From an uncultured bacterium (GTDB lineage: Bacteria > Verrucomicrobiota > Verrucomicrobiia > CAIQCK01): a stretch of DNA of 64,000 bases. This document shows, one piece after another, positions 8,233 to 41,329 of this stretch. The notes below the pieces were generated by a model. It ran no database searches, was not told where the DNA came from, and saw only the letters and a program-made list of their open reading frames with translations. Position 1 is the first letter of the stretch, and every line of letters begins with the position of its first letter. The stretch is taken from assembly GCA_903870275.1 (NCBI GenBank), contig CAIQCK010000056.1, positions 1 through 64,000 of the forward strand, read 5' to 3'. The translations under genes were made by a program, and so were the position numbers.

Positions 8233-9360
8233 TCAGTGTTTGTGTCCGGAGGCTGCCGCTCCGTGGGATGACGGAGCGGGAGCGGCTGGCCGCGGAGCCG
8301 GTGCGGCCACCGCGCGGCTTTGCTGACCGCGGCTGCTGGCTGCGTGTGCTTCATGCGCGCTTTCGCCGCCCACAAACGCGCCGCCGGAGGAATGCACCGC
8401 CGGCGCCGGCGCAGCATGCGGAGCTACATAGTGACTTTCGGCACGAGGTTCCACGACGGCACGCGCCGCCGGATGCACCTCCGCACCTCTGGCAGCCGGA
8501 TGCACTTCCGCACCCCTGGCCACCGGCTGGACGGCGGCGGCATGAGCGGGATGAACATCGTGACTTGCCCAACCGCGATCCGCGCGATTCACCGTCGCAA
8601 CGGCACCGTGAACTTGCGGACGCCAGACGGTAACATGGCTGTTAACGGCCACGTTCCCGAAACGCTCGCGAGGCGGGCGACCCCACCAATCGTGCGGGCG
8701 GTAGTGATCGCGAGACCACATCATGACGTTGTGATGATGCCAGTCGCAATCGGAGTTCAGCCAGAAGCCAATGGAGAATCCCACGCCGAACGAGAAGAAG
8801 AAACCGCGCCGCGCGAAGATCATGTCGGGCTGATACATCGGCACGTAAAGCATGTCCGGATTGGCGGGGAGGATTTCGATCATGCCGTTGTCGTCGACCA
8901 CGCACAGTTGCGGCGTCGTGCGCAGGTTGCCAAGCGCCTGGGCCTGGAAGCGCAACCGCTGGATGGCTGCCATCACGTCCGCCTGCTGATACATAAACGC
9001 CAGGCCCAACTGGGTCGTCCAATCCAACCGCTGGTCCATCATCCTCAACACATCGGGATAATGGGCCACGGCCATCACGCCGGGACTCCAGGGTTGATAG
9101 TCAATCTGGCCGGGGTTTCCTCCGCCGAACACATAGCGGGCCGCGAGCGTGATCTCACCGGGCGCCGTGGCGGCGGGCAGGATTTGCGCGATCAGCGGAT
9201 CGGGATAGAGCGCAATCGGCGCAAGCAGTTGATCAAGTTCGGGCGGGGCGCGCAACGCCACCGGCGGCGCGGGAGGCGGAGCCGCCCATTGCGCCGGCGC
9301 TTGAATGGACGCGCTGACCCATACAATCAGCGCCGTGGCAAAAATAATTGTTCGTTTCAT
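8233..9360 (-). CDS. DUF3300 family exported protein with Ala/His/Pro-rich tail
   Basis: 375 residues from an ATG at 9360, preceded by GGAGAG 6-11 nt upstream; it opens a signal peptide (about 1-24). The DUF3300 signature is clear: 'LDQLLAPIALYPDPLIAQILPA', 'VMAVAHYPDVLRMM', 'LGLAFMYQQADVMAAIQRLR' and 'PDMLYVPMYQP'. A Trp/His-rich middle (about 210-250, including 'CDWHHHN') is followed by a low-complexity tail with near-identical 9-residue units around 'ARGAEVHPA', probably unstructured. The unit repeats may make this stretch prone to length change. First gene of the DUF3300-DUF2950 pair. Function unknown. Confidence 0.88.
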   Translation of the reverse strand: MKRTIIFATALIVWVSASIQAPAQWAAPPPAPPVALRAPPELDQLLAPIALYPDPLIAQILPAATAPGEITLAARYVFGGGNPGQIDYQPWSPGVMAVAHYPDVLRMMDQRLDWTTQLGLAFMYQQADVMAAIQRLRFQAQALGNLRTTPQLCVVDDNGMIEILPANPDMLYVPMYQPDMIFARRGFFFSFGVGFSIGFWLNSDCDWHHHNVMMWSRDHYRPHDWWGRPPRERFGNVAVNSHVTVWRPQVHGAVATVNRADRGWASHDVHPAHAAAVQPVARGAEVHPAARGAEVHPAARAVVEPRAESHYVAPHAAPAPAVHSSGGAFVGGESAHEAHAASSRGQQSRAVAAPAPRPAAPAPSSHGAAASGHKH

Positions 9361-36962: not shown

Positions 36963-37577
36963 TCAGGGAATGCCTAGCCGATCAAGGATACACTCGATCT
37001 GCGCGTATTCGGACATGACAAGACCCCAATAACGCCGGTTGCCAGCCGTCACGGCGATCTCGCTCTTCCTTAGAGCGCGGGGCTTGTCCGCTGAGTTCCA
37101 ACGGAAATCGCGCATAGCATCCTCGAATCTTCCACGCAGCCCAGTGTTCCCATGCGAGGATTGCAGACGAACTAGGCGCAGCGATACTTTCAGCGCGTCG
37201 GGAAACGCGGCGATGGTACCAGAAAAGCAGTGTTCGATGGCTTGCAGAGCATCAAGGATTGCATCGGCGCAGTGCTGATCGTCCACGGTAAAGGCGGCGT
37301 TGACGTGCTGCATTTTGTTCCGCGTGTCGTGATTTCGGAGAAGTGTCGCACCGAGCGTTGTCGTCTTTGCGTCGAGCTTGACAGCAGGATGTTTCAACAG
37401 GTCGTGAAACTTGATGTGGCCAAGCGTAGGATTAGCGGCAATCGCGAGGGCTTTACACGTCATTTCCACAAGCTCATCTGCAAGGATGAAAGCTGCGCGC
37501 TGCTTGTGGCGCACGTCCGAAAAATAGAGTGATACGACGGATTCTAGCGCGTCAATGATGTCCCGTGGCGCGGCCAT
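36963..37577 (-). CDS. HEPN-motif protein coupled to the restriction-modification operon
   Basis: 204 residues, mostly helical, cytoplasmic. Residues 86-91 read RNKMQH, an exact Rx4H (R-N-x3-H) signature of HEPN domains, preceded by 'FHDLLKHPAVKLDAKTTTLGATLLRNHDT' and followed by a helix 'HCADAILDALQAIEHCF', as expected for this four-helix fold. HEPN proteins with this motif are usually RNases used as toxins or in phage defence; others are inactive partners. The gene begins one base after the TGA of the specificity-subunit gene (TGACATG), so it is translated as part of the RM operon. GC content is low compared with the flanking regions. The domain assignment rests on motif and helix pattern only. 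Confidence 0.6.
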   Translation of the reverse strand: MAAPRDIIDALESVVSLYFSDVRHKQRAAFILADELVEMTCKALAIAANPTLGHIKFHDLLKHPAVKLDAKTTTLGATLLRNHDTRNKMQHVNAAFTVDDQHCADAILDALQAIEHCFSGTIAAFPDALKVSLRLVRLQSSHGNTGLRGRFEDAMRDFRWNSADKPRALRKSEIAVTAGNRRYWGLVMSEYAQIECILDRLGIP

Positions 37578-37578
37578 G

Positions 37579-38937
37579 TCATTTCCTGCCGCCGATCACC
37601 AGTCGCTCTACTTCAGCTTTCGCCTTTTCCAGCAGGCGGTCGGCTTCGCCACGGGCGGCTAGGGCTTTGCGAACTCTAAAGACCACCTCATCGCGGACTG
37701 ACTGCTTAGGAACGGCAAACGGGATTCCCATCAAGCGCGTGGTTGCAATAGCCGGATACATCGATGCGGTCGTGTGCAGGTCGAGTATCTCGCAAACGAT
37801 GGGCAGCCGAAGAAAGGTCAGCAAGACCTCGGGTTCAACGCCTTCAGCACCGTGCTTAGGCCGTAACACAGCAAAGCCGGATGAACAAACGTAGCCCGAT
37901 TGCTCCGGCGTGATCAGCGCGGAAAGCTGGCGGATCGGTCGCACAGTCGATGTGATAATGTCGTCAGGCTCGACAACCCACTGCGCGCGACTCGGGGCTT
38001 CTGACAACTTCACAGTCTCCGAATCCGCCAAGCCGTCGCTGCGAATGGAGCCAATTTCGATATACTGAAAAGTGTCAGCGGATTTCAAGGTCTCTGGGCG
38101 GAAGCGTCTCTCGGAAAGATTGGCGACGGTGCCAATGCACCTACCATTTCTTGCGAGAACTTCGAGTGCTCGCTGATAGCGCGGCGAGAAATACTCTGCG
38201 TCAAAGCGATGTGCATTGAGAAGATCGCAATACTCCTTCTCGTAGAACAAGCTCGGCGAGCCCTCCATGTGGGAAAGGCCGAGCGATTCCAGAAGCAGAA
38301 CCTCAGCACTTGAAACAAGGTTAACCGCCTTCTGACGAAGATTGTAAGCATTCTTTGTTGTGGCCGATATTTCAGGAGCAATAGACAGCTTCGGAACCTT
38401 CAGCATCTTTATCTTCTCGATAAAGAGGTTGAGCTGAACATTGCCAGTAGCTTCGCGCAGGGATTGGAAGCGCCCAAAGGTCGTGTTGAGAAAAGTGGCG
38501 ATGAAAAAAGCGTCAATCGGTGCGTCAGGCCTGAGTCGAATCAATCCCAAATGTCGGTCAATGTTCGCGGGAAGCAATTCTGTGGGTACCACCGCCGCGT
38601 TGCCAATAGTCCCAACAGTCGTGAGCAGCACATCGCCCTGCCTGAGACGTGTGCGAGTATTATTCGCATCCTGTTTTGGGCTGATCTGAAGAGCGGCGCC
38701 AATCGAGAAGTCATTGTCCTTAACACACTTGGCGGATAGGTAGCGGACACCATTTTCCTCAACGACATCGGGTGATGAGTGGATGCCGTCAGTGACAAGA
38801 CCCACGGAACCGAGGGTGACGTAGGTAAGCCGTTCGATCATCCGCTCATATTCGAGATAACGCGGCTGAAAATACTCTGCATCGAGACGTCCACGCCGAG
38901 CAAGTTCACCGGAATCTAGCACACTCCAAACGGCCAT
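37579..38937 (-). CDS. hsdS: type I/IIB-like restriction-modification specificity subunit
   Basis: 452 residues from the ATG at 38937, with GGAGG 7 nt upstream; the start lies 2 bp after the stop codon of the methyltransferase fusion. The protein has two halves, each opening with nearly the same phrase ('DAEYFQPRY' near residue 20 and 'DAEYFSPRY' near residue 250). Each half holds a target-recognition-like region and a conserved helix ('EATGNVQLNLFIEKIKMLKVPKLS'; 'ASMYPAIATTRLMGIPFAVPKQ'). Two target recognition domains imply a bipartite DNA site. It pairs with the nuclease-methyltransferase fusion and is coupled to the HEPN-motif gene downstream. Confidence 0.85.
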   Translation of the reverse strand: MAVWSVLDSGELARRGRLDAEYFQPRYLEYERMIERLTYVTLGSVGLVTDGIHSSPDVVEENGVRYLSAKCVKDNDFSIGAALQISPKQDANNTRTRLRQGDVLLTTVGTIGNAAVVPTELLPANIDRHLGLIRLRPDAPIDAFFIATFLNTTFGRFQSLREATGNVQLNLFIEKIKMLKVPKLSIAPEISATTKNAYNLRQKAVNLVSSAEVLLLESLGLSHMEGSPSLFYEKEYCDLLNAHRFDAEYFSPRYQRALEVLARNGRCIGTVANLSERRFRPETLKSADTFQYIEIGSIRSDGLADSETVKLSEAPSRAQWVVEPDDIITSTVRPIRQLSALITPEQSGYVCSSGFAVLRPKHGAEGVEPEVLLTFLRLPIVCEILDLHTTASMYPAIATTRLMGIPFAVPKQSVRDEVVFRVRKALAARGEADRLLEKAKAEVERLVIGGRK

Positions 38938-38939
38938 CG

Positions 38940-40880
38940 TTATGCCTCCTCGCAAAACCGAAGGGCCTGCTTCTTACCCCACGCAACAAAGCCGTCCGCA
39001 ATCTCGTCAAGGTCATGCTCAACGACCATGTGGCTGTGGTTGTCGAGCAGCGGCGCGTTGTCGGGACCGATGCGGTAGATGTATTCGCCGGAGTTGTCTT
39101 TGCCGGGTTTGATGCTTGTTGCTAGGAAAACTGGGTATTTCTCGATCCTCGGATTGTAGGTCGGCGATTTTTTGTCTTCGTTCCACATCTGCACAAACAA
39201 CACACTGGTTTTCGTTCCGGTGTGTGGTTTGAACGTGTTTTGGTGTAAGCCGACGACAGCGAGGATGCGAGCGCGGTCGGCAATCCAGCGGCGAATTATC
39301 TCATCACCGGAGTTGTTGAAACGACCTTGCGGCAGGACCATTGCAGCACGTCCGCCAGGCTTGAGGAATTCGATGTTGCGTTCGATGAAGAGGATGTCGC
39401 GCCCGACGTTGGCTTCCCATTTTCCCTTCGCCCCTTTGGCAATGTCGTATTGGTGGATGATACGCGAGTCCTTGATGTCTCCGGCAAAGGGCGGGTTGGT
39501 AAGGAGCACGTCGAAGTCGAAGTAACGATAGTGTTCTTGATTCCACTTGTCGCGTTCCGGGTCTTTCGGGTAGCGGCGCAGGCGCGGCTTCATGCCGACG
39601 CGGACTTCGTCGTTCCATGTCTTTGGGTCGAGCGTATTGGCGCGATAGACGTTGGTCTTGCCGTCGCCGGCAATGAGGTTGAGGGCGCGCGCGATTTTCA
39701 CTGAGCGCGGGTCAAAATCGAGGCCATAGACATGGCTGCCGGCGTAGTCGGACTGCCATTTCTCCGGCCCCTTGGCGGTAAAAACATCGCCCCAGACGTG
39801 GAAGATGGCGTGGACGGTAAACCCGCAGGAGCCTGCCGCGGTATCAATGACGTAGTCGTCAATCGAGGGGTTGAGCATCTTCACGCACATGTCGATGACG
39901 TGGCGCACCGTGAAGTATTGGCCCTTCTCGCCTTTGGCTGCTTTGATGGAGAGATACTCGAAGGCTTCGTCAATGACCTGGAGGTTTGAATTGAAGAGCT
40001 TGATGTCTTCAAGAAACGAACCACAGACCTTGAGATGGTCGGGTTCAAGGTTGATGCGCTCGCCTTCGATGAAGACGCCCGGCCATTCGCCCATTGCCCT
40101 CTTGAACAGCGAGTCTACCTTTTCGGCAAACTCACGGCCAGTGGAACCGCCGACGCGGAATTCGAGGTAACGCTTCGTCTTCCCGCCGCGTGCGGCCTGC
40201 CACTCGTCGTAAAGCTTGGCATAGACAAGCTTGAAAACTTCGTCGAAGGCGTCCACGCCAGCGTTGGCGAGGACGAGGTCTTCCATGTCGAGGATGACGC
40301 TTTTCAAAGAGCGACGTTCAGTAATGAGCTTGTTGTTCTTTTCGAGGTCTTCGAGCGTCCACCGCTCGGCGAGCATTTCGGCGAGACGTTGGCGGGCGGT
40401 GGGAATGTCCGGGAGGTTGCGAAAGAGGTTCGGCTCTTCGCGGTGAAGCGCGATGGTTTCGCTGCCGTTCGTCCACACGCCGATGGGCGAGCCTTCGGCG
40501 TTGCAGTAGCTTTTGAGTTGTTCGAGGCCGTCTTTGCGCTTCGGCTTTTTGACCTCGACAATGATGTAGGGCGTAGTGGGTGCGTCCTTTTCCCAGATGA
40601 CGATGTCGGCCGCCTTCTCGTGGACAGCGGAGCCGAAATAGACGGGCTTCTCCACGGCGATGCGCTCCTTCGGATAGCCGTAATGCCCCATGAGTTTGCG
40701 GAGATAAAGCTGCCGGACGATCTCTTCGGGCTTCGCCGGGCGTGGCTTATCACTGGCAGCGCAGGTGAGGTAGGGCTTGCCGGCTCTGTCGTGTATCTCG
40801 ATTGCTTTGATTTCTTTTTCGCTGAAAATTGTCAGCGCGTAATCAGAGCCTTTGAGGATGTCCTGAATTGTGTGGGACAT
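38940..40880 (-). CDS. hsdM: restriction nuclease-adenine methyltransferase fusion (BcgI-A-like)
   Basis: 646 residues. The N-terminal domain (about 35-150) has an HsdR-N-like PD-(D/E)xK nuclease pattern: Asp92 ('ADIVIW'), then Glu109-Val-Lys111 ('IIVEVKKP') and Gln121 ('LEQLKSY'). A helical linker follows (about 155-310), then an N6-adenine methyltransferase: SAM-binding motif I 'DTAAGSCGFT' (346-355) and catalytic 'NPPF' (462-465). Nuclease and methyltransferase in one chain with a separate specificity subunit is the layout of BcgI-type (type IIB) enzymes, whose A subunit is about this length. No translocase (HsdR helicase) gene is present. First gene of the three-gene operon. Confidence 0.85.
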   Translation of the reverse strand: MSHTIQDILKGSDYALTIFSEKEIKAIEIHDRAGKPYLTCAASDKPRPAKPEEIVRQLYLRKLMGHYGYPKERIAVEKPVYFGSAVHEKAADIVIWEKDAPTTPYIIVEVKKPKRKDGLEQLKSYCNAEGSPIGVWTNGSETIALHREEPNLFRNLPDIPTARQRLAEMLAERWTLEDLEKNNKLITERRSLKSVILDMEDLVLANAGVDAFDEVFKLVYAKLYDEWQAARGGKTKRYLEFRVGGSTGREFAEKVDSLFKRAMGEWPGVFIEGERINLEPDHLKVCGSFLEDIKLFNSNLQVIDEAFEYLSIKAAKGEKGQYFTVRHVIDMCVKMLNPSIDDYVIDTAAGSCGFTVHAIFHVWGDVFTAKGPEKWQSDYAGSHVYGLDFDPRSVKIARALNLIAGDGKTNVYRANTLDPKTWNDEVRVGMKPRLRRYPKDPERDKWNQEHYRYFDFDVLLTNPPFAGDIKDSRIIHQYDIAKGAKGKWEANVGRDILFIERNIEFLKPGGRAAMVLPQGRFNNSGDEIIRRWIADRARILAVVGLHQNTFKPHTGTKTSVLFVQMWNEDKKSPTYNPRIEKYPVFLATSIKPGKDNSGEYIYRIGPDNAPLLDNHSHMVVEHDLDEIADGFVAWGKKQALRFCEEA

Positions 40881-40925
40881 GGGCGTGCTTCGCTCGCGCG
40901 CGAATCAGCCCTGTCGGGGATGGCT

Positions 40926-41016
40926 TTCCTCTGTGGGAACCTTGGTGCCTGAAAAAAAGTGTGGGACGCACTTACTTGCGTCCCGTCACAGGCACCTAGG
41001 AGCGCCCACAGAGGAA
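40926..41016. repeat. 91-bp nested palindrome upstream of the restriction-modification operon
   Basis: Three nested arm pairs: CCTCTGTGGG (40928-40937) with CCCACAGAGG (41005-41014), GGTGCCTG (40944-40951) with CAGGCACC (40989-40996), and GGGACGCA (40963-40970) with TGCGTCCC (40977-40984). It begins 46 bp upstream of the methyltransferase start codon. The nested plan resembles REP- or MITE-type elements. Beyond it (41017-41329) I see a further GC-rich palindromic patch near 41025-41045 and no gene. Confidence 0.7.
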
Positions 41017-41329
41017 CGCTTTCGGCGCGCCCCACGTGGGGGCGCGCTTCAAGCGAAGTCCTCTGTTCGAAATTCCTAGGTTTCGTGACGGACAGCAGCC
41101 GAAGCTACGCGAAATCAGTTTTGGTTTTTGGTTACTCGATAATTCTGTATTCTCTGTGACGCGCGGAGTGTAGCGCAGGCGGCGAGAGCGCGGCAAGGAT
41201 TGCTTCGCAATCGGGCACGTGATAAAAACCAACTTTCCTTCCAATATTCAGTCTCTTGGATCGTTTCTCACCTTGAGATGAACCCGTTCATAATGACTTC
41301 TGCATCACAAACAGTCTGATCTCATCGCC

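Follow-up and report, generated by a model that had tools for sequence, protein, structure and literature searches.

A 64,000-nt stretch of an uncultured verrucomicrobial bacterium (GenBank assembly GCA_903870275.1, contig CAIQCK010000056.1, positions 1–64,000), hereafter the window, carries on its minus strand a three-gene restriction-modification (RM) operon at 36963–40880. An open reading frame check gave the order M-S-X, where M is a nuclease-methyltransferase subunit, S a specificity subunit and X a small protein with a HEPN-type motif. In the reading that we prefer, which we consider about as likely to be right as wrong, the locus is a horizontally acquired RM system of the type IIB plan that lacks HsdR and carries a HEPN gene in third place, and X is a ribonuclease toxin restrained by M-S.

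The two enzyme subunits follow the type IIB plan in their architecture. In an alignment of M with 12 relatives (13 sequences), D92, E109, K111 and Q121 of the nuclease domain were invariant, as was the methyltransferase motif NPPF. When the profile of these sequences was compared with solved structures, the best match was the type IIB enzyme RM.BsaXI (E = 1e-34), and the alignment also covered the BsaXI nuclease domain, at EVK. S matched many type I specificity models, several of them in two stretches, and is 52% identical to the S of a related M-S-X locus in a gammaproteobacterial metagenome-assembled genome (MAG; L002). In plasmid pAQ6 of Picosynechococcus, a relative of M is fused with S as a single chain. 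No HsdR was found within the window or adjoining the operon, and a motif screen of 28 related M-S loci found none beside M-S; the sole hit, in L045, was a strawberry-notch protein and was rejected. In contrast, 8 of 20 control HsdM loci, a lower bound, contained an HsdR-like helicase.

BcgI-like enzymes consist of two proteins, an RM chain and S, and require no translocase (PMC3874165). M-S resembles the BcgI and BsaXI enzymes in joining the nuclease and a gamma-type adenine methylase in one chain, in having a separate S with two target recognition domains (TRDs) and no translocase, and in having BsaXI as the nearest solved structure over both M domains. It differs in that the nuclease domain of M scores as the HsdR-type HSDR_N_2 and in that a third gene is present, whereas the described BcgI-like enzymes are two proteins (PMC3874165). 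Membership in type I was rejected, as no HsdR motor accompanies M and S and the HsdR encoded on another contig of the genome (C101) comes with an S and an M of its own. Because M-S has the RM chain, the two-TRD S and no HsdR in its operon, the type IIB plan is supported, and judged from these sequences it is very probably correct. The original prediction had named the four nuclease residues, an intact adenine methyltransferase, a separate two-TRD specificity subunit and the lack of an HsdR motor. The domain matches and invariant residues bear out the first two, the two-stretch matches of S the third, and the fourth holds within the window; an HsdR just outside the operon, which would have counted against the prediction, did not turn up. 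Its assignment to the BcgI plan stands for the architecture, through the BsaXI match, the pAQ6 fusion and the absence of HsdR, whereas the behaviour expected of such enzymes, cutting on both sides of a bipartite site and m6A on both strands, is something that we infer for M-S.

The gene of X is tightly linked to those of this enzyme. The S-X junction reads AGGAAATGACATGG, that is, TGA-C-ATG with a gap of 1 nt, and a Shine-Dalgarno-like AGGA for X lies inside the end of S. The HEPN motifs are Rx4-6H and a second motif, Ex3[KR], the latter as defined in PMC3710099. An all-helical bundle and metal-independent endoRNase activity are further marks of the superfamily. X contains the sequence R86-N87-K-M-Q-H91. 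In the alignment of three homologues, R86, N87 and H91 do not vary, and neither does E38-x3-K42. Among 148 background proteins, RN...H was seen about 0.015 times per 204 aa. An AlphaFold2 model of X, made from three sequences, was all-helical with a pLDDT of 81. When it was searched against the PDB with Foldseek, the matches with a probability of at least 0.5 were the HepT/HEPN structures 6m6u (0.92), 5yep (0.75), 2hsb (0.72), 6m6w and 7bxo, together with the uncharacterised 1wwp (0.51). From this model and the two motifs X likely belongs to the HEPN superfamily, and a role as an RNase toxin is plausible, somewhat better than an even bet. The exact R-N-x3-H and the start of X one base past the end of hsdS had both been predicted and were confirmed. 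A fold unlike HEPN, the outcome that would have spoken against the prediction, was not returned: the higher-probability Foldseek hits were HEPN/HepT structures, with weak E-values that are considered below.

The M-S-X order is kept across different phyla. A pattern search of 84,980 species genomes recovered two full-length homologues of X (67% identity) and one 34-residue fragment. The full-length genes, in a planctomycete MAG (L001) and in L002, lie 3–6 nt behind S of related M-S pairs, and thus X homologues mainly away from RM loci, the outcome that would have counted against the predicted association, were not what the search returned. X was found in no plasmid and no viral contig, and among 388 genomes of the host phylum only in this one. 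L002 has an M with 90% identity to that of this operon, and three congeners lack X, indicating that the M-S-X cassette moves horizontally. An empty site was sought in these congeners, but the downstream flanking gene was absent too at the threshold used, so none could be shown. The X fragment, the first 34 residues at 85% identity, stands alone on an Opitutaceae contig (L003, 10001–10102). Neither M nor S lies in its vicinity, and it is apparently the scar of a lost cassette.

The third place was then compared across related loci. Through PADLOC family PDLC03034, relatives of M were collected from the host phylum (14 of 388 genomes) and from the phyla of L002 (11 of 399) and L001 (4 of 343), with thresholds that differed among the searches; further M-S loci came from plasmid, phage and viral-contig searches. 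The count was restricted to the 25 loci in which M, S and the next gene were visible. A same-strand gene abuts S in 20 of them, and five have no third gene. The occupant is X in three loci, a second family, Y, in ten, and another gene in seven, giving an RNxxxH-type third gene in 13 of the 25. Y is mostly about 200–275 aa long (376 aa in L049), and its motif R-[NC]-x-[LM]-x-H is invariant and sits at a helix end in the structure model. It matched no Pfam or NCBIfam model and at most one weak PADLOC entry. When Y was searched for by itself, it was always found behind S, in three viral contigs (L089, L090 and L091) and in 2 of 299 genomes, both at M-S loci. The seven other loci hold SLFN_AlbA_2; AbiEii with an S-DUF6577 fusion; DUF1016_N and Fic; TIR and an ATPase; DUF3800; an NTase_sub_bind-nucleotidyltransferase fusion with YhcG; and RelE. 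In the AbiEii case (L033, 9884–13100), DUF6577 is fused to the C-terminus of S and the AbiEii toxin gene comes next, so that a specificity subunit appears to be physically joined to a toxin-antitoxin partner. In three further loci, BRO or DUF488 genes lie between M and S. M proteins with identities of 93%, 73% and 69% are followed by different third genes, and placing the third-gene labels on the M tree (33 rows) takes 15 changes, indicating that the third slot is exchanged.

Decayed copies of Y were abundant. In the plasmid collection the sole intact Y has M-S beside it, and 465 records, nearly all from Klebsiella, retain only near-identical Y residues 129–263. In the one truncated record examined (L085), M, S and the N-terminal half of Y are missing and the remainder abuts IS1. 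In E. coli, three copies of M-S-Y are intact and two remnants were found; one intact copy, on the EC2001 chromosome (L086, 8001–12216), is 99.9% identical to a Klebsiella plasmid copy and lies beside two DUF262 genes. Among these records no intact Y was seen without M-S. The pattern of decay fits a dependence of the toxin on M-S, yet the remnants could descend from one event.

Under the preferred reading, an assembly of two M chains with a single S would bind a bipartite site and methylate adenines in it, and the N-terminal nuclease domain of M would cut unmethylated DNA near the site without ATP-driven translocation. X would be a small ribonuclease toxin of the HEPN family, with its translation coupled to that of S, and the M-S complex would keep it inactive. 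Neutralisation, saturation or loss of the RM proteins would free X to cut cellular RNA and halt growth, providing a second line of defence or retention of the module. We infer DNA cleavage by M-S, HEPN catalysis, control of X by M-S and the trigger; control by M-S and the backup role could equally well prove correct or incorrect. A broader proposal seems rather doubtful to us and is offered tentatively: that HsdR-less type IIB-like RM systems have a dedicated and exchangeable effector slot immediately behind S, with the HEPN RNase families X and Y as its default occupants and M-S as an antitoxin that senses anti-restriction, forming a two-tier defence directed at DNA and then at RNA.

Several observations weigh against these proposals. 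The Foldseek E-values for X were weak (0.7–2.5, with TM scores to the target of 0.5–0.6), leaving its HEPN membership likely rather than proven, and its motif conservation carries little weight because there are only three full-length members. X had no match in the Pfam, NCBIfam and PHROG libraries and a chance-level hit in PADLOC. HEPN structures were not retrieved among the top 50 of the Y fold search, so Y is called HEPN-like by its motif, and a profile comparison of X with Y detected no relation; when X and Y were compared with PDB sequences, only chance hits were returned. Ordinary type I loci also carry accessory genes near S (20 HsdM loci of the host class, inspected by eye), and since such genes are common in RM loci, a neighbouring gene need not be functionally coupled. 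It is the absence of HsdR together with a frequent RNxxxH partner, not an occupied neighbourhood, that marks the M-S class.

The genome encodes other RM genes. Contig C101 carries a separate type I operon in the order R-S-FRG-M (L028, 4895–12001 of the locus), with genes for an EcoEI-type HsdR (953 aa) and an S, a gene with an FRG domain, and the N-terminal region of an HsdM. Similarity between this HsdM and M of the operon described here is confined to a short stretch. Contig C35 (L027, 5761–8820) encodes a 1020-aa single-chain type IIG-like enzyme with Eco57I methylase, TaqI_C and weak HSDR_N_2 matches. In a related locus (L029, 7457–7879), a 140-aa HsdR N-terminal-like remnant, judged by eye, lies directly upstream of M and is possibly the trace of an older type I operon. 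In the planctomycete locus L001, S is only about 220 aa long (about 8654–9319). It is apparently a half-S that has a single recognition domain, and this would point to a palindromic target.

Three other explanations of the locus were considered. X could be a HEPN-fold accessory or regulatory subunit, an RNA- or DNA-binding protein or a component of M-S, that tunes RM expression or activity and is no RNase toxin. Such a role would suit the tight translational coupling of S and X and the constant place of X after S, and non-catalytic HEPN domains are known as RNA-binding modules (PMC3710099). We nevertheless consider it unlikely: X keeps both catalytic-type motifs, and in relatives the same slot holds the unrelated toxin-like AbiEii, Fic, TIR, RelE and NTase_sub_bind-NTase proteins, which, together with the five loci without a third gene, makes an obligatory subunit role improbable. 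A toxin that serves solely to retain the RM module, with M-S as its antitoxin and no dedicated phage trigger, would explain why every intact Y found came with M-S and the Y of decayed loci is truncated, why a 34-residue piece of X stands alone in L003, and why the loci are patchy and mobile. The 465 near-identical truncated Klebsiella copies may, however, stem from a single event. RM systems by themselves cause post-segregational killing, which would leave an additional toxin superfluous for this purpose, and we rate this explanation as quite improbable.

The remaining explanation, that M-S here only modifies DNA or borrows the HsdR of C101, has very little probability in our estimate. The genome does contain that EcoEI-type HsdR with an S and an HsdM N-terminal region, and the best PADLOC model for M is named 'MTase_I'. 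The complete nuclease motif of M is nonetheless invariant in the 13 aligned sequences, HsdR is absent beside M-S in relatives, and the C101 HsdR has its own partners, including an M with only short similarity.

Pairing of a HEPN protein with an RM system is not a first, since HEPN-RM coupling was proposed in 2013 as a multi-pronged defence for at least 16 HEPN clades (Anantharaman et al., PMC3710099). The present locus shares the general idea of that catalogue, but X and Y match no Pfam HEPN family. The tested example of such coupling is PrrC, which the type Ic RM system PrrI keeps in an inactive state (PMC3710099). Both loci (PrrI being EcoprrI) combine an RM system with a HEPN RNase, in the case of X a predicted one, as a predicted second line of defence. 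PrrC, however, has an N-terminal ABC ATPase and a full hsdMSR operon, whereas X stands as a single domain of 204 aa behind a pair that lacks HsdR. At this length and with no Pfam domain, X has no fused N-terminal ABC ATPase and was rejected as a PrrC-type anticodon nuclease. The HepT/MntA (HEPN-MNT) system provides the best structural match of X, but the neighbours of X are S and a DUF6259 protein rather than an MNT nucleotidyltransferase gene, so that a HEPN-MNT toxin-antitoxin pair was also rejected. M and S match the MAD2 and MAD5 models of MADS over most of their length; the scores are far under the curated cut-offs (267 vs 720 and 101 vs 400 bits), none of the other MAD genes is present, and MADS was set aside. 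In literature searches limited to open-licence papers, no title or abstract described a HEPN third gene of a type IIB-like system, and the X and Y families behind this RM type appear to be undescribed.

Features of the operon are listed in Table 1. As listed in the original gene set, S (37579–38955) starts at TTG 38955, inside M. ATG 38937 follows the M stop with a gap of 2 nt, has GGAGG ahead of it and agrees with where the L002 homologue starts. The start was therefore moved, and this ATG is the better candidate, giving 452 aa. The operon block has a GC content of 55.5%, compared with 62.7% for the window, and is about the lowest 3.9-kb stretch there, as expected from the prediction of lower GC than in the flanks. 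The neighbouring genes encode a DUF6259 protein, an FGE-sulfatase-like protein and a beta-propeller/phosphoesterase protein, with no obvious defence gene among them. Direct repeats flanking the operon were sought and none were found. Two inverted repeats (arms of 15 and 17 nt) lie in the intergenic region upstream of M, at 40923–41055, and are possibly regulatory or the remnant of a mobile element.

Table 1. Genes, domains and motifs of the M-S-X operon in window coordinates
Feature	Position	Strand	Description
M (RM) subunit	38940-40880	minus	646 aa; HsdR-type PD-(D/E)xK nuclease domain and N6-adenine methyltransferase
HSDR_N_2 nuclease domain, M residues 51-160	40401-40730	minus	E 9e-26
D92, E109, K111, Q121 of M	within 40518-40607	minus	PD-(D/E)xK nuclease residues
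N6_Mtase domain, M residues 304-568	39177-39971	minus	E 2e-26; NPPF motif at 462-465
S specificity subunit	37579-38937	minus	about 452 aa; two recognition domains; start moved
X	36963-37577	minus	204 aa; predicted HEPN-fold protein
E38-x3-K42 of X	37452-37466	minus	second HEPN-type motif (Ex3[KR])
R86-N87-x3-H91 of X	37305-37322	minus	candidate HEPN RNase motif; C-terminal end of helix 74-91

Should X and Y prove to be RNases under the restraint of M-S, the compact type IIB enzymes, which are usually regarded as simple cutters made of two proteins, would be immune modules that guard themselves. The near-identical M-S-Y of E. coli EC2001 makes guarding by an RM enzyme testable with cloned genes, and the third slot offers a place in which further effectors may be sought.

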